In this document: positions 46,043-63,790 of the stretch, one piece after another
How the letters are laid out: each line of letters begins with the position of its first letter
Position numbering within the stretch: the first letter of the stretch is position 1
Assembly (NCBI GenBank): GCA_010094025.1
Contig: ML991817.1
Coordinates: 178,955 to 242,954 of the forward strand
Direction: 5' to 3'
From: Viridothelium virens
Taxonomy: Eukaryota; Ascomycota; Dothideomycetes; Trypetheliales; Trypetheliaceae
DNA length: 64,000 nucleotides
Position numbers and translations under genes: made by a program
The notes under the pieces: generated by a model
The model's input: only the letters and a program-made list of their open reading frames with translations
Databases searched by the model: none
What the model was told of the DNA's origin: nothing

Positions 46043-48153
46043 ATGTTTTATTCTGTTTTAGTCACAGCGGCGCTCGCAGTGAACGCTGCTGCCACTCCCT
46101 TTAATACTCATGTTGTACATGAGAGGCGTCATGGTCCCGCCCACGGATGGACAAAGCGGTCACGGCTTCAAGAGAACGCCATTCTACCCATGAGAGTTGG
46201 TTTGAAGCAGAGCAATCTTGATCGCGGGTATGAGTATATAAATGATGTATCCCACCCGACCTCTCCAAATTTCGGAAAGCATTGGAGTGCGAAGCAAATT
46301 GCTGAAGCTTTCGCTCCAAGGTAAGCAACTCCAGGATAGTTTGCAATTATTTTGAAGGCTTGATGACTGATGACATCGTAGTGAGGAAACTGTGAAGGCT
46401 GTCAAGACCTGGCTTGCAGAAGCTGGCTTCGATGACGCCCGCGTCAAACTCTCGCAGGGCCTCAACTGGCTGGAGTTCAATGCTACTGTTCCCCAGGCAG
46501 AAGACTTGTTGAAGACAAGGTACAATGTTTATGAGCATAAATCCAACGGGCAGCCTCATGTTGCCTGCGAAAGTTATAGCTTGCCAGCCCACGTACAACC
46601 GCACGTTGACTTCATCACACCCACCGTCCACTTCGACGCCAAGGTCGAGCCCGTCAAGAGCAAGAGGCAGCTCAGGAAACGTCAGAGCGCTCAAGCCAAT
46701 AAACCCGCAAGGGTCGTTAAGCCTGGTTCTTGGACTGGATGGCTACCTAAGCTTGGCCGTATGCTTCCTAGCCGTAAAAGCATTATCAAAGAACTGGAGA
46801 ACTGTGATGAACAGATCGTACCCGACTGCCTGCGAGCGCTCTACAGCTTTCCACAGAACACATCTGCCAATTCAGAAAATAGCTACGGGATCGTGGAATA
46901 TACGCCGGAAGCCTATGTGCCTTCCGATCTCGACTTGTTCTTCGCAAACTTTTCACCAGCTCAAGTCGGAGACAGGCCAAATCCGACTGACTTGATCGAC
47001 GGTGCCGTCAACCAACAGACAAATAAAAGTTTCGATTTCAACGGTGAATCAGACCTCGACTTGGAATACGCTTTGACCTTGGTCTACCCCCAACCTGTCA
47101 CGTTGTACCAGGTCGGTGACCTTGTTGAAGGAGCTTCATTCAACACTTTCCTAGATGCAATTGACGGATCTTACTGCACATTTGAGGGTGGCGATGACCC
47201 AACACAGGACCCTACCTATCCAGATACCCTCCCAGGCGGATACACAGGCCCAGAAAACTGTGGCGGCTTTGCTGCAACCAAAGTCATCTCAACTTCCTAT
47301 GGCTACAATGAGGCTGATCTTACGCCCTTCTATGAACAACGACAATGTGCTGAATACATGAAGCTTGGTCTTGCAGGAACTACCATCTTGTATTCGTCTG
47401 GCGACTATGGTACGTTATAACCTGCGGCTCCCCGCTCCGCCACTCTATGAAAATGCTCATCTGGGTACTAATCGGGTTTTGAATTTAGGTGTCGCTGGAA
47501 ACGGAAATGAATGTATTGCCTCCAATGGTTCCTTCATCAACGGTGACCTCGGCGGCACATTCAACCCATCTTTCCCCGGGACCTGTCCCTATGTGACCTC
47601 GGTCGGCGCAACACAAGTCAAGAACAACACCAATATCCTCACTGATCTTGCGAGTGGGACGGAGCCCGAGCAAGCTTGCGAGACGGTCATTTTCAGCGGA
47701 GGTGGATTCAGTAATGTCTTCCCACTCCCCGATTATCAAGCCGATGCCGTCAACTCGTATTTGACCAACTATCCACCACCGTACGGAGCAGACAAGTACA
47801 ACAACTCGGGTACCGTTCGCGCCATTCCAGACGTCTCTGCCAACGGCGCGAACTATGTCATCGCCATCGATGGAGAATTCGGTCTCGTCTACGGGACTTC
47901 AGCCTCCTCGCCGACTTTCGGCTCCGTCATCACGCTTATCAATGGGCAGCGTTTTGATGCTGGGAAGTCCTCCGTCGGATTCCTCAACCCGACACTCTAT
48001 GCCAACTCGAGCGTGTTGAATGATATTACGGAGGGAGACAATCCGGGGTGCGCGACGAGTGGATTCCAGGCTCAACCTGGTTGGGATCCGGTGACAGGAC
48101 TGGGAACGCCAAATTATCCCAAGTTATTAGAGCTGTTTTTGTCTCTTCCTTGA
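46043..48153 (+). CDS. Secreted S53 peptidase (sedolisin / tripeptidyl-peptidase)
   Basis: Three exons (46043-46320, 46382-47409, 47489-48153), about 656 aa. A signal peptide (MFYSVLVTAALAVNAAATPF) precedes an activation (pro-kumamolisin) domain with MRVGLKQSNLDRGYEYINDV and HPTSPNFGKHWS. A dibasic region KSKRQLRKRQ is the probable kexin site between propeptide and enzyme. The catalytic domain carries Glu and Asp in GESDLDLEYAL, the oxyanion Asp in SSGDYGVAG and the nucleophile Ser in YGTSASSPTFGS. A calcium-site region occurs near the C-terminus (DITEGDNPGC, GWDPVTGLGTPNY). Such enzymes cleave peptides at acidic pH outside the cell. Exo- or endo-activity cannot be decided. The phase-2 and phase-1 introns are clean. 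Confidence 0.94.
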
Positions 48154-48655
48154 AGAGGAATGGTAAGATGATCTCTTAGTAATTTAGAGCAATATCTAGA
48201 AGCTATCTAGAAATGCGCCTATAATGTTTGGATCCTAGCTGTATAAATTTGTCGAATATACGGTCTTTTTTGATTACCCGCAGCTGTCGTGTCCTAGCAT
48301 GTGTCATCATAGAAGACCTGACAGGTCGAACCTATTAGTGACATCTGGTATGGTGCACTCCACGCCTCTAATTGTACTGGACTAGGTATGTTCTCTTTCA
48401 GTTTGTGGAAGTGCTTGGAGCGGTTCAGGTTGGTTGAGGACTGCGTTTCCTATTACGAACGGCTCGTTCAGTTTTTCATTCAGGCATTCCAAGGCCCTGC
48501 CACCGCTGCACGAATTGTTCGAAGTCCCCTCGCCGTGTATCACTAACACTATTAACTTCAGCAGTAGCTTTCACCCTTGGAACTTAACCATATTGAAGAG
48601 CGTCAAGACCGAATGCAGAGATGATATTCCGACAACGACCATACTCCCAGGTTGC
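48154..48655. other. Convergent intergenic region
   Basis: 3' flank of the S53 peptidase gene and of the minus-strand gene that follows. Nothing recognised. Confidence 0.5.
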
Positions 48656-49735
48656 CTACGTCTTGCCCCCGCTCCTCAACACCAGCATCATCCCCTTCCG
48701 CCCCTCCTCGATACGTGCCATCTCCCTCTCGTCCACCACAAACCCCTCCGTTTCCCTCCTCACCACCACAAACCCCTCCTTCTCCTCCTTGCCCTTCCCC
48801 TCCCATCTCCTCAAAAGCTCCTCATTGTACGCCTTCACCTCAGACCGCACCCTACCGATTCTCATCAATCCCTCCAACCCCTCGTCTCCCACCTCTGCCT
48901 CCCACTCCTCCACCTTTCGCCATCTCGGAACCCTCAGCATCCTCACCACATACAGCGCCTCCACATCCAACTTCCCCTCCTCGCGAAACACCGCCCACTG
49001 ACCCGTACGCGAATTCCAATGCGTGCGGTACTTCAGCCGCAGCTCTCGCAACGGCGACGCGGGATCGCACAGCTGCGACACGAACACGCGCGCAGGATAC
49101 CACCAGCACCTGCACGTGTGGTCGTGGCGCGACAGACTCGGAGACGCCGTGCCTGGGACGAAGAGGCCCGGCTCGGGTGGGGGTCGTATGGTGAGGGTGC
49201 GGAGGGAGGGGAAGGCGGCGGGGGTGGTGAGGTACGTGGAGAGGAAGGCCCAGGGGGACATGGAGAGCAGAGACGGGCTGAGTGGGATGCGATCTACGAA
49301 GGCGAGGGACTGGAGGAGGTGGCGCGAGGGGGGGCGGCAGGGAGTGCAGGAAGGAGAGGAGGTCTTTGGCGCGGGCTTGGAGGACGAGCGTGGTGTGGCT
49401 GTAGAGGATGGGGAGGGCTTCGGCGTGGGTGGTCTTGCAGACGCGGAGGATGGTCGGGTCGGCGGCGTTGGAGGGGGAGAGCGAGGTTTGTTGGATGGTT
49501 TCGGTTTCGTGGTAGAAGTGGAGGTGGAGGTGGAGGTGGCCGGGGCGGACGAGGAGTTCGTGGTAGATTTGGTCGCGGAGTTCGCGGGGGAGACGGAGTA
49601 GCGTGCTGGTGCTCTACTACAGGTGGGATGGGTACGACTCTGTTTCGTGTATATCTACGATTTTGAAATGTAGACGAGACTGTCCGCAATAGTGTCAATG
49701 CTCAGTCTTCCATTACAACCTTACAGCAAGCTCAT
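48656..49735 (-). pseudogene. Frame-broken 'LPRELRDQIY' (F-box-like) family gene
   Basis: On the minus strand, reading from about 49616, the frame gives STLLRLPRELRDQIYHELL and then TILRVCKTTHAEALPILYSH, the opening of a large fungal family of F-box-like proteins of unknown role. In a run of seven G (49328-49334, C on the coding strand) the frame ends, and the continuation (SLAFVDRIPLSPSLLSMSPW to the stop at 48656) lies one base out of phase. The 319 bases between matched codons on either side are not divisible by three. One extra base in the run explains it, either as a mutation or as a homopolymer error. A tiny first exon at 49735-49725 (ATG, donor GTAAGG) is possible but unproven. The length without the break would be about 330 aa. 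Plus-strand open frames over this interval are GC-rich shadows. Confidence 0.65.
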
Positions 49736-50248
49736 AGCATACTGATGCAGCTGAGTTAGACGTGACGTACGACTGTACGACCTCGCCTCAGGCTTCTTGG
49801 ATCTTCGATTAGGTCTCAAGGTAAAATCAAACTGGAATACCTCGTAAAGTTCACCAGGAAAAAGCTGGACAGAATGGGAGAATTTGAGCCTTTCTACTCA
49901 CTCACGCTCTCCGAGTTTGCACCTCGTTTTTTCTCGATAGGTACCTGAAAATAAAGCTCTACAGAAGTCGCTAATTCTACGCGTAAGAATCCAGGGGCTA
50001 CTTTGAGAAACCCGGGCTTCACATTGAGGGCCACGACGCAGTATTTCCGAAGATAATTGAACAATATCAAATCTAATTGCTTCCATTCTTCCCTGGCAGA
50101 ACGTGGGCTCCCTAGAACACATCAGATCGCGCTCCTCATGGTCTGAAAAGAAATAGTACACCAAGCCGGTTCGACTATGGACACAGAAAATCTTCTGGCT
50201 TATGTGACGCTCAGCAAAGACCTTCATCCATCAAAGATCCTGATGAGA
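49736..50248. other. Intergenic between the F-box-like gene and xanA
   Basis: No gene seen. Contains the 3' flank of xanA and the upstream region of the frame-broken gene (same strand). Confidence 0.5.
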
Positions 50249-51505
50249 TCACGCATCCGGACCGACTGGTGGAGCGCTTGCAGAAAGGTTGCATTGTCTA
50301 AAAAGACGGACCTCGTCCTCAGCAAAGGCACCAACAACGCTGTGCAAAACACCATGATTATTAAATAAGACCAGATCACCTTCTTCCCAATCATGTGGAT
50401 ACACGAACGCCGGGCTAATGGCAGGACGCTGTAAGCGATAGACGATTTCACGTACTCGCTCCAAGTCATCGATTATGTATCCGTCCTTCAAGTGAATGCG
50501 GCGAACAGCAGAGGGATGGATCTGCAGGGCAAGCTCGCCAGTGACAGGATTCTTCCAGGTCATCGGCAGAACTTGAATCTTGTCCGATTCGATAGGAGGA
50601 AGCTCAGCCTCTGACAACTCGCGCTCTTCCGAAAAAAGGCCTAGCCCAGTCGGCCGAGATCGAGCACCACTCATCCAGATATATGGATGGGCAGCATATT
50701 CGACTTGGCTGGTGCGGACAAACTCCTGGTCTTGAGGCGAAAGACGGTTGTACATCTCATAACCAGAGACGAAAGCAGTAGTTCCTAGAGGCACGTCGAG
50801 TTCGTCGCCAGTCCCATCATCGTAGCGGAGAGTTTGACGGCGGCCCTTCGGCACAGATACCGCAAGAAGGCTAGTCACACGGGGCGGATTCATGCCATAC
50901 AAAGCTGCATCAATGTGCCATCTATAAAAGCGTGTGAAGTTCAAATCATCCTCCTCAGGAATGGGTTCACGATGGAAGGTCTTGTGATGAGGGTGACGCA
51001 GCTTCGCATTTTCAAGGCCCTCATAGCTCTGAATCAAGCCATTGCCGATGACCTGTACCTGCGGCTGGTGCGGGACTGTCTTTAGGTCGGGATGGAGCAC
51101 ACTCCGCTTGGCATCAAGGGTTTTGCCATGGCCATATTCTGTAGATGCTGGGTCGAAACGGCAAGTGAGCTCATACTGCGCCTTGGGCGATAGCTTAGCA
51201 TTGTTTTTAATGACAACAACACTCCGACGATAGAGAGTATCATAGATGAGATCGAAATCGGTATCTATTAATAGTTAGTCTATGATCGAAACCTCGGCAA
51301 ATGTATTCCCATATCTTACCTAGGAGGTTACCGATCCTCGGAGTGCTCCTGAGTCTACAAATCCTTTACTTTACTTTTGATGCCATTCGAAGGTCTTACC
51401 GTTCAATGTTTCTATGTCAACACCGATGATGACAGCACCGAAGTTCCGTTGAGAATTCTCGCCGGGAATAGGAAGCACTTTCGGGGAGGAGAGGGTGCCA
51501 ATCAT
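50249..51505 (-). CDS. xanA: 2-oxoglutarate-dependent xanthine dioxygenase XanA
   Basis: Two exons (51505-51400, 51264-50249), about 373 aa. A TauD/TfdA-fold Fe(II) enzyme: RWHIDAALYGMNPPR holds the HxD ligands, FNNHGVLHSVVG the distal His, and RLFRQCN the 2-oxoglutarate-binding Arg. VLHPDLKTVPHQPQVQVIGN, THE segment PEEDDLNFTRFYRWH and GTTAFVSGYEMYNRLS are characteristic of the fungal XanA subfamily rather than of taurine dioxygenases. XanA hydroxylates xanthine to uric acid using oxygen and 2-oxoglutarate, a molybdenum-free alternative to xanthine dehydrogenase in purine catabolism, in the cytosol. The 135-base intron is longer than its neighbours; a micro-exon inside it cannot be made to fit the phase. 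No other purine gene is nearby. Confidence 0.9.
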
Positions 51506-53567: not shown

Positions 53568-54882
53568 TTAGCTCGCATTGGCCCTACCAAAGTTGACGCT
53601 TCCATGAAAATGGCCACCGTAGATGACGTTCGCGTCTGAATGGACATTGCCGTTATGAATGACTGTGTAGTCGGAACTCTTGGGTGTCTGCTATATCAAC
53701 GAGTCAGCCTCCTTCGCGGATCCTACATGCAACCTCAATGAATTTGGAGGCTTACTGCTGCACTTTCCTGCTCTTTGGGCTTTTGCCTCTCAGACTGTCG
53801 GCCTGTACCCATAATTTCCGTCCACGATTTAAGGAATGATTTTAATCGCATATAACCCACGTCTCCAGGTTCACTGTACTTGGTCATTCCGCTGTGCGTA
53901 GCGGGAATGCTGTACGAGGCGTATCCCCTCATGATTGAAGATTCATCAAGAACGATCTAAAGTCTTTTTTTTTTTAGCATGCCGTCAATTTTAGCGACAC
54001 TTTTTTTCCTAAATACCTTGCGCTTGAGTCCTAGCTCTGGAAGCTCCTCCAAGAAACACACAATTTGGATGTTTGTTTTGTGCTGTTCTTGAAGCCTCAG
54101 AAATTTCTGAAACCTATCCTGCAATTCCGCCAGAGGCTCTGCGTTCTTCTCTAGTTCTTTCAACAACTTTGTATTAGTCTGTTTGACACGACCGAGCCAT
54201 CGCCTGAGGAATTCTCCCCAGGTAGCGAAATCGGATCCTTTATGGGGCGTTCCCATGAAGATTATACCATACAGGGCGTCTGCAATATCCCTGGAATCTT
54301 CGTCTTCACTTGTTAAAGTTCCTGCAGAGTGGAGGATAGCCTAAGAGATGGTAAATTTGGTGAGCACGTATCCTACTGCATCATAATGTCCACGCCAGAC
54401 TTACAGTCTTGCATATTAACCCCCCGAGACTGTGTGCCACAAAGACAATGGGTCGGTGCTAAAGCTCTAGTTAGGTTCCTCATCTTCATTGTATCTCGTG
54501 AATGTTGCTACTGACGAAAGTTTCGGATGCCTCTCGGAATTTCGTTAGATCGAGACAAAGGTTCTTTGCGTGATGGGTCATGCTGTTTGCCGAAACTTTG
54601 CCAAACATCTCAAAATTGACGACATCAGCGTCGTAACCCCAGCTGACTATCCTGACAAATGGTAGGTCCGTTGCTAGTAGATCGCGCGGCCAGAAACACT
54701 TTACATCATTTTTGATCCCTGTCCATGTCGCTTCGCGATTCCCTGTGAGCCCGTGGACAAAGACAATGCTATGGAGATGTGAGTTGTGCCTTTTCCGTTG
54801 TATACGCATGTTTGGCTTACTCTGCAACAGCATTCGTAGGATCTGAGACCACTACTAAGCCATACTCCCTTTCGCGTGACAT
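53568..54882 (-). pseudogene. SesB-like alpha/beta-hydrolase (lipase/esterase) with C-terminal amyloid-like motif, frame broken
   Basis: Six minus-strand exons can be placed (54882-54821, 54768-54516, 54457-54405, 54340-54017, 53956-53756, 53690-53568). Exon 1-2 give YGLVVVSDPTNAV and IVFVHGLTGNREATW, the start of the DUF676-type hydrolases fused or linked to fungal NLRs. Exon 3 holds the nucleophile-elbow region RPIVFVAHS, and exon 4 continues GIIFMGTPHKGSDFATWGEF. Within exon 3 the frame breaks in a run of five G (complement of 54420-54424) just after the elbow; the conserved stretches on either side are one base out of phase, giving an early stop. The last exon carries a Gly/Asn-rich terminal motif (53586-53669), GN-x9-G-x2-FHG-x-V-x-FG, which is also found at the N-terminus of the divergent NLR. 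Such hydrolases act as cell-death or incompatibility effectors activated by NLRs (established for SesB-type clusters by motif sharing). Confidence 0.75.
53586..53669 (-). other. C-terminal amyloid-like signalling motif of the hydrolase
   Basis: Encodes 28 residues near the C-terminus, starting YTVIHNGNVH and ending FHGSVNFG, followed by only four more residues before the stop. Eleven of 28 positions are identical, without gaps, to the NLR N-terminal segment at 55639-55720. The position (end of an effector) and composition (Gly, Asn, Val, His, aromatic) fit a prion-forming signalling peptide. The class (HRAM, sigma, PP or new) was not assigned. Confidence 0.65.
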
Positions 54883-55520
54883 TCTGGGCGGTGTGCTGCT
54901 TCTTTATATTGCAATGGTTTTGAAAGTGGAAAAACACAGATGCTCTATTGGTAGTAATCGGTCGATTTTCCAGTTTGCTGACGATTCTCCGAGCTTGGCG
55001 ACGGTCGCGCTTTGAGAACTACCAACCGCGATGAAGACGGTCAGTCAATCTCTCTCTCAGATCTGCCTGGGTTTTTGTGATATGCTGGACCTGGCCTGGA
55101 ACCAAGCTTTCACGCTCTGGCTCGGTTTTTGTGTACACTGGTGGGAGAATACTTTGAGTAAACAAAGCTGGTACGTACCTTCCGGGGGGGGGGGGCAGCT
55201 TTTCAAGCAGTTTTGTCCCATACGACCAGTCTAAAATGAAGGAGAAAAGGACTGGGCTAAGTTCACGAATCCTATGGCGTATGGAAGTATCTGACCAGAC
55301 TTTACCAGCATGAGAAGTTGAGTAAGGTTGACGGAGAGCAAGGGTGAGATTCGCGGTCGCTGGTGCTGAAGAACAGGGGAGACTTTGCGGTGTCTTCCCC
55401 GATAGTCGCTCTTCTCACTTGGCCGATTTGTTCAGTCACCCTGCACTACTTTGCAAACGCTTAAAAGGCTCATCCCTCCCAATAGCGTATCCCTTTTCTT
55501 CGCAACTTGAGACTGTTGCA
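54883..55520. promoter_or_regulatory. Divergent promoter between hydrolase and NLR genes
   Basis: The 638 bases between the two start codons must serve both genes. It contains a run of nine G (55186-55194) but no clear TATA box. Co-expression is an inference from the shared region. Confidence 0.5.
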
Positions 55521-58500
55521 ATGACAGAAAACGCTGGACAGCAGCCCTCTGGGCCGGTAAGACTGTTTCTCTCCAAATCGATTACAAGCTCTGATCCTGA
55601 TATAGTCAGATCGATGCCCCTCAACAGAACCTCAACCTTCCATCGTGCATTTCAGTGGCAACCTACCATCAAGCAGCACGAATTTCATTGGTTCGCAATT
55701 CCACGGCCCTGTCAAGTTTGGTAAGCCTTTCCCATGACAAGAAGACCAGCAAGTCATGATGGTCTCTCTATGCTTTTAATCAGTTTTTTTTTTTTGACGA
55801 GTCGAAAGAAGCTCCAACCGGCAATCAACGAGATTACACGGACCCAAAGACTGAGTGTCTTGCTGCCATCTTCAAGCGCATAGGTCAAAACCCTACTACG
55901 GTTTTGAATTCCATCCAATCTCGTAAGGGCAAAGAAACCCCTGGAACATGCAGGTGGATACTGGATCACGAGAGATTCAGAGAATGGCGACAACATAGCC
56001 CATCACTGCTCTGCCTTGTGCGAGGTCCGGGTAAAGGGAAGACCGTACTCGGAATCTATATCAGTAGGATTCTACAAGAAATTGCCAAAGACGAAATGAC
56101 TTGTTTTTTCTCTTGCGAAGCCCTGAACAAGCCCTCAACAGGCAGCACCATCTTGAGCTGTATACTGTTCCAAATCCTCGATCAGAAACCTAACGTGTTC
56201 AAATCCTTTGAAGAAGCATTCGCGATCCAAAAGGAACAGTTGTTCGAAGAGGCCAATTTTGAAGACCTCTGGAAAGCCTTCGAAACGATAATCCGAAACA
56301 TGTCTTTGCCCAGAATCAATTGCGTTCTTGACGGCGTCGACGAATGCACAGGTGGCACGTTCGACTTGCTGCTTCAAAAATTCAAGACCCTATTCGAAGA
56401 TTGCTCAAAGTTTGATCCAGGAAGTTCCACCTCCAAGTCCACGATCACCCCAACGAGTGTTCCTCTAGGTCTGATTCTAATCGGCAGAGAGGACCATCAG
56501 ATATGCCTAAAGCGCTTCCTGTCCCACTTCGAAAACCTTCGAATTGAACACGACTCTGTGTGTACGCAGAGTCTCAGGGAAGACATACATTTCACGGTAA
56601 AGGAAAGAATCAAACTGATGGCCAACAAAATTGGGAAGAGGATGAGCGACTTCAAAACGTCGCTATCGGCAAGCTGGTCAGTCGTTCGGAAGGAACGTAC
56701 CTATGGGCTGCCTTAGTCCTAAAAGAACTTGAAAACTTGGAATGGACAGAGATCGAAACAGCCATTGAGGATTTCCCAAAAGGATTGGCGAAAGTATACA
56801 CTCGATTGCTTCGAAACCGATGTTCAACTCCTTCACGAGTGGAGACGATAAGACTTGTGTTGATGCTGATGTGTGGCGCTTGGCGTAGCTTAACGCTTTT
56901 AGAGCTGACCAGTGTACTCCTCATGGATCCCAAGCGAGCCATTTCATCAACATCCCAAGCAAGATCCCTACTCGGATACTGTGGCCATCTGATCGAGGTT
57001 CCAAGGGAAGACGACGGCCTTGTGCGCCTTTGTCATGCGTCTCTGAAGGAGTACCTCTTGAGCTTGCATGCCTCTTCTGTGGTCGGACTTAAAAGTGTCT
57101 GTTTCTCAGAGCAAGACATCCATTGGACCATGTCCAATTTATGCCTTGACGCAATCGAAAGTACCCTACAAAACAGGGACAGTTCCAAGAAGATCCGAGA
57201 CTGGACAGACCGCTGGATTAAGGCAGACGAACATTGCATACGTCTAAGGAGCCCTGAGTCTTGGAGTCCGAACGTGTGGCCGGATCTCCAAAACAAATTT
57301 TTCCCATATGCGGCGCTTTACTACCCTGACCACGCACGACATCCAAGCCCATGCGAGAAAACAAAATTCGATCTGTCCAGGGTCTTCTTTAGAGAGGCGA
57401 GACTACGTGACGATTGGCACGTCATCCATCAAAATATGGTCAATCCATGCTGGCGGTTATATATTCCATCACTAGAGCACGCAGCTTCGAACGGTCTCCG
57501 GTTTGCGACGCACTATCAATTTACGGAGCTTGCTAACCAAATTCTAAGCACCGCCAGTGTGGACCGGAACATGGAGCCTTTCTTCAGAAGAGAAGATTCT
57601 GGAGGGGAAGAACCCCCATTGACTCGTGCGATTATTCTGAACGACTCTGTTACTGCGGAGTTGTTGGTGCAGAAGGGTATGCAAGTCGACGTCCCGAACA
57701 AGCACGGGATGACGCAAATTCATGTGGCATGCTGCACGGGCAATGTCAAGGTCGTCCGCTTGCTTCACGCCTGCAACGTCAGCATAGATCTGCAAAACGA
57801 GATCAAACCGTACGATCAAGCACGCGATGCAATCGCTGGAATGCTTCCCTCATCCCTGCTGGAGAACCAGGGAGTCACTGCAGAGGAGTATTTAGGAGAG
57901 CTTGATTTGCGGCACCTTGAGAGTGATGTCGCAAGTACGGTTACATTACTTCTTGATAGGGGCGCTGAAATCAATGCAAAGGATCTTTGGGGGAATTCTT
58001 GTTTACATCTGGCAGCAAGATGGGGTTGCAAAGAACTGGTTGATTTGTTACTGGAAAGAGCCGCTGATTTGAAAGCCACGAACAACAACACCGAAGATTG
58101 CTTGCCCCTTGCAAGCCGTGGTCGAACCAACCTGCAGCAAAGATCGCAAATTGTCAGCAAAATTGTCAAATCTTCCGGCAATATCAACAAACGTTCCGAA
58201 AATGGCCAAACAGCATTGCAAGTGGCTGCTCACAGCGGAAATCAACAAATTGTTGAAACTCTTCTTGAAGAAGGAGCAAGTTTCGGGGTAGCTGACGGAA
58301 AAGGTCTTTCTGCCCTTCATTATGCTGTGATAGGAGGACACAGAATGATTGTCCAAACGTTGCTTCGTCCTCCAGCACTGTCATTCAGGAGCTCCAATTC
58401 AGACATCAACACAAGGAGACCTGTACCGGGTCATTCAACCCACAGAAGACTGCCATGCGCAGATCCCGACACGACGGATAATACTGGTAGAAGTCCACTT

Positions 58501-59589
58501 CATTTAGCATCTGCATTCGGAAGTCTTTCAATGGTCGAGCTTCTGGTTGAAGGCGGAGCCAACCTCAATCTAGCAATCCCGCAGTCTCAACTTACGCCGC
58601 TTCACTTAGCCATAAAGTATGGTTGTAATTTGGCGGTGACAAGATATCTTTTGGCAAAAGGGGCAGATACCACGAGTGTCAGCGAATGTGGACTCAACGC
58701 GCTGGAGATTGCAGTCCTTTGTGGGAAGGGCTTTAGCGCAAGTACGGTTATTGCTAACATGAGTCACGAAGCGCTTGGAAAAACCCTCCTTCATTTCTTT
58801 CATTTGAGTCCTGAAGAGCCCGGTCCGCTTCCTGCAGCGATACGACGGTACGGAAACGAGAGCTTAGGATACCACCTTGGAAAGGCTATTTTGTGGTGTG
58901 CTCATGAACGAGCGAAATCTTTGCGCAAGAGGGACCGCGGCGGAATTGACAAGACAAGAGCTGATGTAAATGGCCACACAGACATTGGTACGCTGTGGCA
59001 AGCATTTCTGTGGGCTTCCCCTGTGCTAATATATGAGACAGGTTTAGCGATATCTGTGGTAGTATATGGCCTCGGAATACTTGCTGACAGAGAGCCAACC
59101 CGTGATTCGAGACTTGATTTCTTGGAAGCTCGACAGTCATTCCAATCTTTCAATCCAGCCAGTCGCAAAGTATGGCGAGAGGGTACTCGGCCCTCTGGCT
59201 ACATTGAGGAACAACTCCTGCAACAATGGCGTGCAAGGTCGAAAACAACAGCACGGGCTCTCAATCATGGTTTAGGTGGACTCTGGGATGGACCACTTTT
59301 ACACATCCAGAGCGGAACCTCCGGTCCTTTTGATGAGGACATTTCCACTGAGGATCGTACGAACGACACGGAAAATCTGTCTAGCCAGGGGCCTCCAGAT
59401 GAAGGTTCGACAAGATTCCCAGTACCTCCCATGCCGCCTTTTTTAGAAGGCGTCCCAGACGTTGACAGTACTGTAGATATTGAAGAGGAGAGTGCTATAC
59501 TGGAATTTCCCGTCGACTTTAGGAAACGTCTATGGAGAGGAAAAGGCATGGGGGCGGCTAGGGGAATGGAGGATGCAGGGTTGGACTAG
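55521..59589 (+). CDS. NACHT-ankyrin NLR-type receptor with N-terminal amyloid-like motif (frame break or unusual intron inside)
   Basis: Exons 55521-55556, 55606-55720 and from about 55809 or 55812 to 59589; about 1,300 aa. Exon 2 ends in the Gly/Asn-rich motif shared with the divergent hydrolase. The NACHT NTPase follows: the lead-in TDPKTECLAAIF and CRWILDHERFREW, Walker A GPGKGKT (about residue 122), and Walker B with LDGVDEC (nt 56327-56347). After the winged-helix region (IGKLVSRSEGTYLWAALVLK, LLRNRC, LLELTSVLLM, VRLCHASLKEYLLS) come about eight ankyrin repeats (57600-58730; SCLHLAARWGCKELVDLLLE, TALQVAAHSGNQQIVETLLE, SPLHLASAFGSLSMVELLVE). Between nt 56597 and 56641 the frame changes: either one G is missing in 56633-56635, or a 44-base intron (GTAAAG to AAGAG) is removed. 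Fungal NLRs of this type control heterokaryon incompatibility or innate immunity. Confidence 0.82.
55639..55720 (+). other. N-terminal amyloid-like signalling motif of the NLR
   Basis: Encodes a stretch starting SIVHFSGNL and ending FIGSQFHGPVKFG, within the first 50 residues, ahead of the NACHT domain. The spacing GN-x9-G-x2-FHG-x-V-x-FG equals that at the C-terminus of the neighbouring hydrolase. The final G codon spans the intron. Confidence 0.65.
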
Positions 59590-59848: not shown

Positions 59849-60505
59849 CTAATAGACCACCTCATTGACCCTAAAGCCCTTGTGCTTCGGCACATTTAAT
59901 CCATCACTTAGTTTCTGCACCCATTCGATACCCTTCTCCCACCAAAGCTGCCTTTCCGGCCTCATTTCGCTTCGCTCTAAATCCTCCCTGTCTAAAGTTC
60001 CAAGCACAACATCAAACAAGTCCGGAAACCCTTTCGCGTATCCTGGAATTGGCCATACCGCATAAGCTACATTCGTCCCGCAGTGACCACAGAACGATCG
60101 AGTTCTATCTTTGGAGCTTACAAAGAACCGCACCGTAGACTCTTGCGATTCTTCTGAATCTTGCCTTAGCGCTTCGTCCGCTGAAAGCCAGGTCAATTCA
60201 TTGTCGGGTGTTGAGTAATGATGAGTGTCAGGAGGAGGTGGAGGCCGGAGTGAAACAGAGAACATTGGGGCTGGAACACAAAGCCAGGCGGGAAGGATGG
60301 AGCCAGTTGCGCGCCGACAGTCGTTGCAGTGATCTGTCGTACTGAAAGGAAATCGTATAGAGCCGTCAGGAGAGAGTGGATGGACTGGTCGTTCTAAAAT
60401 AGAGGGGATTGAGATACGGTAGCGGATAGCGCTGCAGTTGCATCCACCATGTAGATCAAATCCATGGTTGGAAAGCATTGTTATAAATACTGAGTCTCTA
60501 GACAA
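59849..60505 (-). CDS. GFA/CENP-V domain protein
   Basis: Intronless, 218 aa (or 209 aa from the Met at 60478, which lies closer to the domain). Zinc-binding cysteines of the glutathione-dependent formaldehyde-activating (GFA/CENP-V) fold are visible in order: GGCNCSAIRYR, HCNDCRRATGSILPAW and FCGHCGTNVAY. RFFVSSKDRTRSFCGHCG is typical. Many fungal members are uncharacterised; the family name comes from a bacterial protein binding S-hydroxymethylglutathione, and catalytic activity should not be assumed. A proline run (PPPPPDTHH) in the middle is a small variable insert. It converges with the NLR gene, whose stop lies 260 bases away. Confidence 0.88.
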   Translation of the reverse strand: MSRDSVFITMLSNHGFDLHGGCNCSAIRYRISIPSILERPVHPLSPDGSIRFPFSTTDHCNDCRRATGSILPAWLCVPAPMFSVSLRPPPPPDTHHYSTPDNELTWLSADEALRQDSEESQESTVRFFVSSKDRTRSFCGHCGTNVAYAVWPIPGYAKGFPDLFDVVLGTLDREDLERSEMRPERQLWWEKGIEWVQKLSDGLNVPKHKGFRVNEVVY

Positions 60506-61079
60506 GCGAAGTACCTCGAGACATCGAAGAGGAAGTCGTCGCTAATACAGAGGGAGACTTCATTTTTAGACTGGCCTGGTCATGCAGCTTCGTCAAGGCA
60601 GCATCGAGCGAATTCGGCTTACGCAGAGCTTAGAGTATGCCAGACTTATTCATATCGGGACGCAAGAACGCCTCTGACGACTATTAGCAAAGTTGAAGTA
60701 GGCAGACCAAAAGAAACAAAAATCTTTGACGACTTTCAAAGCAATATTGCGGCCCAGCAACGCCTTTGCCACGTACATGCAGAGCTGAAATGTAGCATTT
60801 GCCAGGACCGGTGGAATTTTTGTCCGCTTACGATACCATTCATCCCACTCCAACCCACGGGCGAAGTTCTACGGCAGACGGCGATACGCCGATCTACAGG
60901 GCCAACGATTGCCTTGTACAGGCAACCTTCTTGCTTGCGGCGAAGGCATTGCCAACATTCTTCGCGAAGCTGCAGCTGATGTGGTTGCGATCTCTACCAT
61001 CTCATGCGGCGCAATCTCAGGTGGACGCATCGAGGTCTGAGATGTTGGATAGTGTACACGAAGCCTGGGCCATCTTTCT
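60506..61079. other. Intergenic between GFA gene and FMO gene
   Basis: GFA-gene promoter and FMO 3' flank. The plus-strand open frame of 117 codons (60799-61152) overlaps the end of the monooxygenase gene and shows no family resemblance. Confidence 0.5.
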
Positions 61080-62882
61080 CTACTTTTTCTTCTTCATCAG
61101 GCCAGAAGACTCTTTTCTCAAAGAAAGCCACTCGGCGATAATGCCCTTGTAATCTTTCAATTGGTACGCTCCCCCGAAGACTTCCCCGAGCAAGCCCCAT
61201 CCTTTTCTCCAGCTTCTCAATCCCAAGTCTCTCATGAGCGTGTCATAGTAGGGTAAATTGTCATGCAGCGTATCGCCAGTCTTGCCTTGAGAGCCCATAG
61301 GACATCGCCATTTGCCGAAACGAGTCCATAAAGATACCTCATACAAAACGTCTGCCTCACTCTCGGGTTGCACACTCAACTCATTATCGAGGTAGGCGTA
61401 CGCCCACAGTGAGACTATCTCTGATTTGAGGTAGTTCTGGTAAGTTTCCACGTTAGTGAGAAACACTAGATTCCGCGGTCCATTGGAGACTTGAGACGGA
61501 GGCGCGATAAAGCGCCAAAGTCGCCATGGCGTCCTACCTGGCTCGCGCTCGGGATAGGTAGGACTGTGCTTTAGCTCTGGAAATCGCGCAAAGAGTTCGG
61601 TGTCGGCGCGTTCGTCGAGGGATGCGAAGGCCTTCGATTCGCCTGGGAAAGGTGTGACGGGTATGCCCCATCTGAGCTGCTTCGTCGCTGGAAGAAGAGG
61701 AAAGCTCGGTCCAAACTCATAGCCCGTCGCGTACACGAGAGCATCGGTCTCGATACGGTCGCCATTTTCCAGGATAATCGACTCATTTTCCAGACGTGCA
61801 ACATCTTCGTGTACGATTTGGACTCCAGCGTCCCGTATAGTGTCGTAGAAGTCTGTGTCATAATTAAGGATGGCCGCCTGGCCGCCATACCACATTAAAG
61901 ATTCCTTCGGTACAAGTTGCTTCGTCGATTCCTGCTTCAGGATTCCGCTCTGCTCGATCGTGCTCTTCGACATGTTTGCAAAGTAATTGCGAGTAATAAA
62001 GCGACCAAGCGTAGTGTTATGCAGGAAGTAACGTACACTATGGAAGCCGTCATTGATACTCCAGGGGGCAGCTCCGAACCAGGATAGCGGACGAGTCATG
62101 AGGAGGCCCTCCATCCAGGGACTGAATGGCCCTATCTTTGGATAAGAAATCGCCAACCAAAGTCCGCCACGGCCCGTTTTACGAACGATCCAGGTCACAT
62201 CCTTTCCATTGGAAGCATATCTATAGACTGCATCGTGTGCAGACTTTCCGCCTCCAATGATCGTGACACGGGAGATCGACGGATCCTGAAGGACTTTAGT
62301 GCCAGTGGAGGCCAGCTCCACCGAGTGAAGCGACGTTTTTCGAAAACTTTGCATGCCGGGATAAGATGGATAAAACGGACGTGAGGTTTGCCCAGTAGCA
62401 GCAAGAAGTTTAGCGCAGGTCACGGTTGACTCTGTCTTTGCATCCCTAAGGTCTGTCTTATTGAGCTTTAGCGTCCATGTCTTGGCGCTGTCCTCGTTGT
62501 CTGTGGCCTGAACGACGATCGTGTTCAAGCATAAATGGGGTAGAAGGTCAAAGTGCTCTGCGTACTTGTGCAAGTATGCTGCCGTAGCCTCGCCGCTTAC
62601 GAGGCCTCGCGGTTTCACTCCAACGTCGGCGTCGAGCAAGGGAAAATCGGAAAATTCAAAGTAGCCTTGAAGATTATTGGCGCGTAGGCCCGGATAGACT
62701 TGTTCTTCTGCCCAGGTCCCTCCAACGCTCGATTTCTCGTCTACAATGAGTAGAGAGATAGACGGATTTATGGAAAGAAAGGTGTGCGCAGCGCACAAAC
62801 CCTGTATACCGGCGCCCACGACAACCACATCGTAATGATCTTTCAGAGTTGTCATAGCGTGTTTTGCGAGATGACTGCGCAA
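61080..62882 (-). CDS. FAD-dependent (flavin-containing) monooxygenase-like protein
   Basis: Intronless, 600 aa from the first Met or 591 from the Met at 62855, which directly precedes the FAD-binding strand and is the likelier start. YDVVVVGAGIQGLCAAHTFL is the first Rossmann GxGxxG; SVGGTWAEEQVYPGLRAN is the FMO-type second FAD segment; VTIIGGGKSAHDAVYRYAS is the NADPH Rossmann motif; and DALVYATGYEFGPSFPLL is the ATG motif. Together these place it among class B flavin monooxygenases (FMO/Baeyer-Villiger group). The usual FxGxxxH fingerprint is degenerate, so the chemistry is uncertain. It ends in a lysine run. Fungal enzymes of this sort take part in secondary metabolism or detoxification; no biosynthetic backbone gene lies nearby. 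Confidence 0.88.
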   Translation of the reverse strand: MRSHLAKHAMTTLKDHYDVVVVGAGIQGLCAAHTFLSINPSISLLIVDEKSSVGGTWAEEQVYPGLRANNLQGYFEFSDFPLLDADVGVKPRGLVSGEATAAYLHKYAEHFDLLPHLCLNTIVVQATDNEDSAKTWTLKLNKTDLRDAKTESTVTCAKLLAATGQTSRPFYPSYPGMQSFRKTSLHSVELASTGTKVLQDPSISRVTIIGGGKSAHDAVYRYASNGKDVTWIVRKTGRGGLWLAISYPKIGPFSPWMEGLLMTRPLSWFGAAPWSINDGFHSVRYFLHNTTLGRFITRNYFANMSKSTIEQSGILKQESTKQLVPKESLMWYGGQAAILNYDTDFYDTIRDAGVQIVHEDVARLENESIILENGDRIETDALVYATGYEFGPSFPLLPATKQLRWGIPVTPFPGESKAFASLDERADTELFARFPELKHSPTYPEREPGRTPWRLWRFIAPPSQVSNGPRNLVFLTNVETYQNYLKSEIVSLWAYAYLDNELSVQPESEADVLYEVSLWTRFGKWRCPMGSQGKTGDTLHDNLPYYDTLMRDLGLRSWRKGWGLLGEVFGGAYQLKDYKGIIAEWLSLRKESSGLMKKKK

Positions 62883-63790
62883 TGAAAAGATTGATAAAGA
62901 TTAACAGATAGATCTAGGACAATGCATTCAACAGAGTTTTAGCAGCTGGTCGAACTTGAATCGGATAGGATAGCGGCATGGAAGAACTTATCCTACTGCG
63001 GAGCTGCAAAGTCAAAAAGACGATAAAAAGCTTTTAACTGCTGGAGATGGAGGTGAAAGCTGACCGAGCCACAAGGCTAAGGAGGAGCTGAACAACATGC
63101 ATGCATTTGAACTAGTATTGTTGTGCTTGACGGAAATGGTACGCTGCGGCACGGCTTGATCCATGAAGAAAGCCTGGAGAGCGCATGCATGAACAGTGAT
63201 AACGCAGGCAACCATCTCTGTGGGGTGTGACCCGGGAGACGGATAACTTGTAGCCAACAAATTGCACGTTCGTGGCCTCTTCATCGACATTCTGTGGCTA
63301 AAATCTGCCGGTGAGCCGCGCCGCTTGCTGCCGTCTTCCAACCTCTACCGCCGAGTAGCATTTCATGAAAGCCTTGCTGAAGAGAGAGCGACTGGCCAGT
63401 ATGCTCAGCTTCTTTGTATGCAATGAATTAGTCATCACGCCAACATTTTCAAGGGACGTAGATTACGGTAGCCTGCAGTGCTCATCCTGCCCCTCTCCCC
63501 CACAGGTAGTAGGTCTACCCCTGGACCCTACGCGGTTTGGGATACTTCAGCCTTGGTGGAAGTCGCGAAAAACATTCCAGCTGTGGCGGTACGGGTTCAA
63601 GCAGAGTTGAGCCGGAGATAGGCCGGGTGTAATTTTGCTGAGTCAGCGCCCTGATACCACTAACCGGATTGAGTTTATGGAGAGGGTAGGTTGTAAGTCA
63701 AAACACCTAGAGTCGGACCAACCCCGAGTCGGCCCAATTTCGCAACCCCCACCATGCACAAAATGAGGCTATTATCTCTCGCATTACTAG
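62883..63790. other. Intergenic upstream of the FMO gene
   Basis: No supportable gene. Short open frames on both strands lack motifs. Confidence 0.5.

Follow-up and report, generated by a model that had tools for sequence, protein, structure and literature searches.

In a window of 64,000 nucleotides of the Viridothelium virens genome (GenBank assembly GCA_010094025.1, contig ML991817.1, positions 178,955 to 242,954 of the forward strand) two divergent genes at positions 53568..59589 code for a putative lipase and for a NOD-like receptor (NLR) with a NACHT-type domain and ankyrin repeats. We consider it likely, with a probability of about 0.78, that both genes form a two-gene NLR module of the fungal amyloid-signalling type, in which the NLR would template the lipase via a motif seemingly private to the pair. 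Fungal amyloid-signalling pairs are recognised by a C-terminal motif of the effector and a similar N-terminal motif of the NLR in neighbouring genes, and this is the arrangement found here. The divergent architecture of effector and NACHT-ankyrin NLR, with these motif positions, had been proposed in the original prediction and is borne out by the gene models and by Pfam. Both gene models are predicted from the sequence alone, and their outer ends agree with the bounds of the region 53568..59589.

The common motif

The two genes and their motif exons are situated as follows.

53568..54882, minus strand: gene of the SesB-like / DUF676 alpha-beta hydrolase (putative lipase), six exons, 338 amino acids (gene model, Pfam DUF676, Ser and His by sequence)
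53568..53690, minus strand: last exon (exon 6) of the hydrolase gene, C-terminal motif exon, 40 amino acids and stop codon, core GN...FG at 53586-53651
55521..59589, plus strand: gene of the NACHT-ankyrin NLR, 1295 amino acids if 56597-56640 is modelled as a 44-nt intron
55606..55720, plus strand: exon 2 of the NLR gene, coding for the N-terminal motif (core beginning with GN at 55657; the splice donor divides the last codon of FG)

The product of exon 6 of the hydrolase gene comprises 40 residues including IHNGNVHSDANVIYGGHFHGSVNFG. Exon 2 of the NLR gene codes for IVHFSGNLPSSSTNFIGSQFHGPVKF, and the NACHT-type domain and then the ankyrin repeats follow. On the unspliced reading both segments show GN-x9-G-x2-FHG-x-V-x-FG with 11 of 28 residues identical and no gap, just as had been claimed for them, and the alignment with the spliced NLR keeps 10 of these 11 identities. 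The proposed common ending FG held for the hydrolase copy but probably not for the NLR copy, whose last Gly codon (GGT, 55720-55722) overlaps the splice donor G/GTAAGC; those acceptors that keep the frame turn this codon into Glu or Ala. An acceptor directly at the poly-T was rejected as being out of frame.

The last 52 amino acids of the hydrolase and the first 96 amino acids of the NLR give a BLOSUM62 local score of 52, which was reached by no shuffle out of 5000 on the NLR side and by one out of 5000 on the lipase side. Against a six-frame background of 454,160 amino acids (frames of at least 20 amino acids, taken from the window and selected loci, not from the whole genome) the partner segments were reciprocal best non-self matches, scoring 60 versus 43 for the next match in one direction and 52 versus 42 in the other. 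Within the 7-kb locus, blastp paired both segments with an E value of 6e-5 and one gap. Based on the shuffles, the background ranking and the codon-position pattern described below, an origin of the match by chance or from a shadow open reading frame was rejected.

Protein searches of the own genome (30.7 Mb, 175 contigs) at an E value of 10 gave for each segment no match beyond the segment itself, one candidate being scored in each search. At the DNA level the pattern FHG-x-V-x-F was matched 13 times in the genome, compared with four matches of a reversed-pattern control, and two of the 13 are the copies in the window. Only in these two is the pattern preceded by GN-x9-G, while one further match (L070) has the G-x2 without GN. 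By sequence, the motif appears to be private to the hydrolase/NLR pair, and if it is private, the channel should therefore lack cross-talk with the other motif pairs of the genome. A comparison of the motif with bacteria and archaea yielded 62 pattern matches, none of which was confirmed, and a comparison with the PDB two matches at an E value of about 1.

Across the 22 aligned codons the bases agree in 14, 14, and 8 cases at the first, second, and third position, respectively, and different codons are used at 4 of the 10 identical residues of the motif pair. Since agreement is lowest at the third position and codons differ at identical residues, the pattern, though made up of small numbers, would fit selection on the protein better than recent copying of the DNA. 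Both motif exons are flanked by GT/AG splice sites that preserve the reading frame.

The hydrolase gene

54882-54821, 54768-54516, 54458-54405, 54340-54017, 53956-53756, 53690-53568, minus strand: the exons of the hydrolase gene (gene model, reading frame open throughout)
54883..55520, no strand: intergenic region between the divergent start codons (gene models)

The hydrolase matches Pfam DUF676 with 29.8 bits (cut-off 20.3), in agreement with the lipase-like effector that had been suggested. The nucleophile Ser could be read from the sequence in AHSLGG and the His in ATHSGM. With the fold match and these two residues the protein has the features of SesB/DUF676-type lipases and is a putative lipase. 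Five matches at E values up to 1 were obtained in the PDB, the best at 0.015. We considered whether the lipase could be broken, as an in-frame stop follows KKKRL. This was rejected: the stop falls inside a predicted 60-nt intron (donor GTATTT, acceptor TTTAG), and the lipase is judged intact because splicing out the 60 nt keeps the frame open up to the motif. One lipase exon was compared with viral contigs and gave 20 pattern matches, none of them confirmed.

Decayed partial copies of both genes lie elsewhere in the genome (L002, L007, L013 group), one of the lipase at C5:483,388-483,853 (85% DNA identity over 495 bases) and one of the NLR at C84:99,358-99,698 (88% over 351 bases); C5, C84 and the corresponding labels below are contigs of this genome. 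Neither of these decayed copies contains a match to either motif exon. Decay of the type caused by repeat-induced point mutation was looked for with the TA/AT and (CA+TG)/(AC+GT) indices in 32 bins of the window and in the relic loci, and no marked signal was seen near the hydrolase/NLR pair.

The NLR gene

55521-55556, 55606-55720 (motif), next exon from 55809, plus strand: exons of the NLR gene (gene model)
55943..56398, plus strand: NACHT-type NTPase domain with GPGKGKT and LDGVDEC (Pfam NPHP3_N, converted from model residues 96-247)
56597..56640, plus strand: frame change, readable as a GT-AG intron of 44 nt, as a small lesion, or as an error of the assembly (gene model, reading frames)
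57991..58713, plus strand: ankyrin-repeat region, best-scoring Pfam stretches (converted from query residues 451-691)

The NTPase domain was matched by NPHP3_N with 93.4 bits, whereas the Pfam NACHT model itself reached 12 bits and stayed under its cut-off of 26.7. The ankyrin repeats gave 152.9 bits with Ank_2, and upstream of the NACHT domain the Pfam scan gave no domain. The frame change can be read in two ways. First, a GT-AG intron of 44 nt at 56597-56640 yields an open NLR frame of 1295 amino acids, yet it drops residues that by eye look like ordinary NLR sequence; second, a small lesion or assembly error at this position is as plausible as the intron. The reading frames of 13 paralogs gave no preference for either, since their linkers vary too much in length.

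Comparison with named motif classes

The Pfam scan was run with hmmscan at an E value of 10, with the HMMER filters discarding most matches above 0.1. At this sensitivity neither motif segment matched Pfam, including the HET-s, sigma, and PP models. The PP consensus FxGx(x)NxGLQLxGxNxGxL (PF17046) is not found in the segments, though at another locus of the genome PF17046 recognises a PP pair. Likewise, the consensus FxGxGxQxxGxGxF of the PNP_UDP-associated motif (PUASM) is absent, and the effector is a DUF676 and not a PNP_UDP protein. The motif consensus was not found in the text consulted on fungal amyloid signalling (PMC3321046, PMC4518210, PMC4986451, PMC5485727, PMC7889193, PMC9815663, PMC12258605, PMC12261475), but it may match a motif logo published as a figure. 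By its sequence we regard the motif as unassigned among the named classes that could be tested here, as it has no Pfam match and shows neither the PP nor the PUASM consensus nor a strict sigma pattern. The families of fungal amyloid signalling motifs counted so far number four, and profile searches detect motifs of this sort with difficulty (PMC12261475).

Two named classes were considered in a diverged form. First, the motif could be a strongly diverged sigma motif and the locus a sigma cluster of the sesB/het-eN type, so that the class would not be new. The effector (a SesB lipase) and the receptor (NACHT-ankyrin) are of the types known from the Nectria sigma cluster, whose motif has a similar length (PMC3321046), and GSQFH in the NLR copy is close to the sigma submotif A, GxGxQFN. 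However, neither of the sigma submotifs GxGxQFNxx and GGTQNINT is actually present: the NLR copy has the loose GSQFH only, and the effector copy contains neither submotif. PF17106 matches neither segment and in the whole genome finds a single locus on C99, and the window segments compared with this sigma-like C99 segment score no higher than expected by chance (the score is reached by 1959 and 705 of 2000 shuffles). We therefore regard a diverged sigma motif as rather unlikely.

Second, the motif could have diverged from a HET-s-related amyloid motif (HRAM), perhaps one of the HRAM3/NLR12 kind, which occurs in single copy. HRAM repeats have 21 residues with Gly at position 19 and hydrophobic residues at positions 5, 8, 10, 16, and 18, and usually two copies are present in the effector. 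Enzymatic effectors with single-copy HRAM-like motifs have been published (PMC9815663), and in its best register the effector segment satisfies five of the six position rules. Against this stands that at least five rules are also satisfied in 293 of 2000 effector shuffles, that the spliced NLR segment satisfies four of six in a different register, and that one copy is seen. PF11558 found nothing in the genome at an E value of 10, a weak silence as its controls gave no match either. An HRAM origin is considered rather unlikely.

Further motif loci of this genome

The genome contains four further motif loci, which served as internal controls; at those on C24, C25, and C65 an effector and an NLR have similar ends.

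C24:325299-326412 (L079, L080): HeLo protein (PF14479, 186 bits) with C-terminal PP motif, and a divergent frame with N-terminal PP motif followed by NB-ARC-like sequence (by eye)
C25, about 323,470-325,160 (L039): SesB-like hydrolase, 45% identical to the lipase of the window over the matched part, adjoining a divergent NLR of the STAND (signal transduction ATPase with numerous domains) type
C65, about 60,200-60,920 (L018, L082, L083): weakly PNP_UDP-like protein (11.3 bits, below the cut-off of 25.1), adjoining a NACHT NLR transcribed in the same direction
C99, about 49,150-51,000 (L005): SesA-like frame (by eye) ending in a sigma-like segment (PF17106, 21.7 bits, below the cut-off of 27.6), followed downstream by a NACHT frame of the same orientation

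The C24 pair is recognised by PF17046 with 42 and 28.7 bits (cut-off 23.2) and was used as positive control. It scored 50, a value reached by 2 of 5000 shuffles, and hence this recognised pair scores no better than the hydrolase/NLR pair of the window with 52 and 0 of 5000. On C25 the ends of lipase and NLR score 68 (0 of 2000 shuffles); the motif is of the type GG-x2-FQGN, unlike that of the window, and the C-terminal piece of the lipase alone has no Pfam match. The C25 NLR reached 23.3 bits with NB-ARC (cut-off 23.5) and 24.8 bits with NACHT (cut-off 26.7). Decay of this pair is possible, given the stop codon that interrupts the frame of its lipase copy and the possible splice donor that the reading of the NLR motif runs across. 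On its other side this lipase is flanked by another copy of the NLR start. C25 also holds one open frame of 1079 amino acids in which matches to a SesB-like hydrolase and to NACHT occur together, which supports a lipase domain as NLR output; fusion of the effector domain in cis to the NLR is an alternative described in PMC3321046. The C65 ends score 79 (0 of 2000 shuffles), and the effector ends of C25 and C65 are alike (score 50, 1 of 2000 shuffles).

The ends of the window genes were compared with those of all four loci. In the 10 comparisons with C25, C65, and C99 the lowest shuffle counts were 39 and 88 of 2000, the other eight being at least 308, and in the four comparisons with C24 at least 1741 of 5000 shuffles reached the score. 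Thus 12 of the 14 comparisons are at or near chance, and by sequence the resemblance of the window motif to the four other loci is weak at best; at counts of 39 and 88, a remote relationship with the C25/C65 type is conceivable. As no clear resemblance is seen between the window and C24, C25, C65, or C99, similarity is found mainly within gene pairs and not between clusters, here within one genome. Greater motif similarity within a cluster than between clusters is a published pattern (PMC3321046).

In a within-locus peptide search 58 stretches including the window pair gave 113 matches at an E value of 0.01. Among the best 60 of these 113, pairs of an effector end and an NLR start were found at three loci (window, L018, L039); by eye, the rest of the 60 are ankyrin or tandem repeats, related hydrolase domains, antisense copies, and inverted repeats.

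Short inverted repeats with similar ends were noted beside several NLR/lipase loci (L016, L028, L040), possibly a small family of transposable elements.

Neighbouring genes in the window

Around the hydrolase/NLR pair the window contains a pro-kumamolisin activation domain (46374-47420), a TauD-type dioxygenase (50249-51274), a GFA-family protein (59849-60541), and an FMO-like monooxygenase (61080-62900). At 48386-49666 an open frame of 426 amino acids, which has no Pfam match, is accompanied by long antisense open frames (332 and 253 amino acids).

Discussion

Amyloid templating is regarded as the signalling mode of NLRs whose short N-termini lack an effector domain and whose motif recurs in a neighbouring effector, as shown for HET-S/NWD2 and for the PP system (PMC9815663, PMC5485727, PMC7889193). 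For the hydrolase/NLR pair we propose a corresponding course of events. The ankyrin repeats would sense a non-self or damage cue, and the NACHT domain would oligomerise the NLR. The N-terminal motifs clustered in this way would fold as a beta-arch or solenoid amyloid seed, which could template the same fold in the C-terminus of the lipase. Templating would cluster the lipase and switch it on, and the active lipase would damage membranes and lead to regulated cell death in immunity or heterokaryon incompatibility.

SesB lipases that share terminal prion-like motifs with the NACHT-ankyrin STAND receptors paired with them have been known since 2012 (PMC3321046), and a putative lipase with PP motif, SBP, has been described as well (PMC5485727). 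On comparison, the arrangement of a sesB gene with a NACHT-ankyrin NLR gene is of an already known kind. The sigma cluster sesA/sesB/het-eN of Nectria haematococca also has a SesB alpha/beta-hydrolase beside a NACHT-ankyrin STAND receptor; there, too, the effector bears the motif at its C-terminus and the receptor at its N-terminus, and the gene of the receptor has a 5' intron (PMC3321046). In contrast to it, the window motif is not recognised as sigma and one effector gene was noted here; no SesA-like protein was among the five flanking open frames scanned, a dedicated search for sesA not being made. In the PP cluster HELLP/SBP/PNT1 of Chaetomium globosum a putative lipase (SBP) is likewise activated through a motif in common with the NLR (PMC5485727, PMC7889193), but that cluster has two effectors where one was noted here, and the PP consensus is absent from the window motif. 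HET-S/NWD2 (HRAM) shares the side-by-side genes of effector and NLR and the common motif, whereas its effector is a HeLo pore-former with two repeats and not a lipase with one motif. In the PUASM system an enzymatic effector stands beside an NLR with a common motif (PMC9815663); the effector is a different one and the PUASM consensus is unmatched here. The earlier suggestion that the motif class may be unnamed is in line with the missing Pfam matches to HET-s, sigma, and PP, while the pair arrangement is less novel than had been implied (PMC3321046, PMC5485727).

Several points weigh against an amyloid-signalling module. The effector has one motif, whereas HeLo-type HRAM effectors usually carry two repeats (PMC4518210), and neither segment is matched by a Pfam model. 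Splicing probably removes the final Gly of the NLR motif, whose codon straddles the donor, so that V-K-F is the most likely end of the mature motif. Given the frame change at 56,597-56,640, the receptor may be broken in this assembly.

Apart from the diverged sigma and HRAM motifs treated above, the common segment could be a docking tag that is not amyloid, with matching beta strands binding to each other without a self-templating fold. We know of no non-amyloid precedent for such a layout. Sequence similarity, the quantity measured, is compatible with a docking tag, but position, gene arrangement, and composition are like those of functionally tested fungal systems (PMC5485727, PMC9815663), so that we judge a docking tag improbable. 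Chance similarity, or a functionless leftover of an inverted DNA duplication between the divergent genes, could draw on the shortness of the segments and the quick divergence of third codon positions, but is largely refuted by the shuffle and background tests, the codon-position agreement of 14/14/8 of 22, and the frame-keeping GT/AG splice sites at both motif exons.

Within the preferred reading of an amyloid-signalling module, GN-x9-G-x2-FHG-x-V-x-F might represent a further family of fungal amyloid signalling motifs, orthogonal to at least three others (PP, sigma-like, and GG-x2-F-x-GN) in the same genome; we put this forward tentatively, as a possibility that is somewhat doubtful. A clearly paired motif of no known class beside a lipase effector provides a matched peptide pair for studying the insulation between amyloid channels, and the PP and other motif pairs of the same genome can serve as internal controls for this question. 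If the motif were indeed such a further family, one fungus would run several insulated, amyloid-templated cell-death channels.

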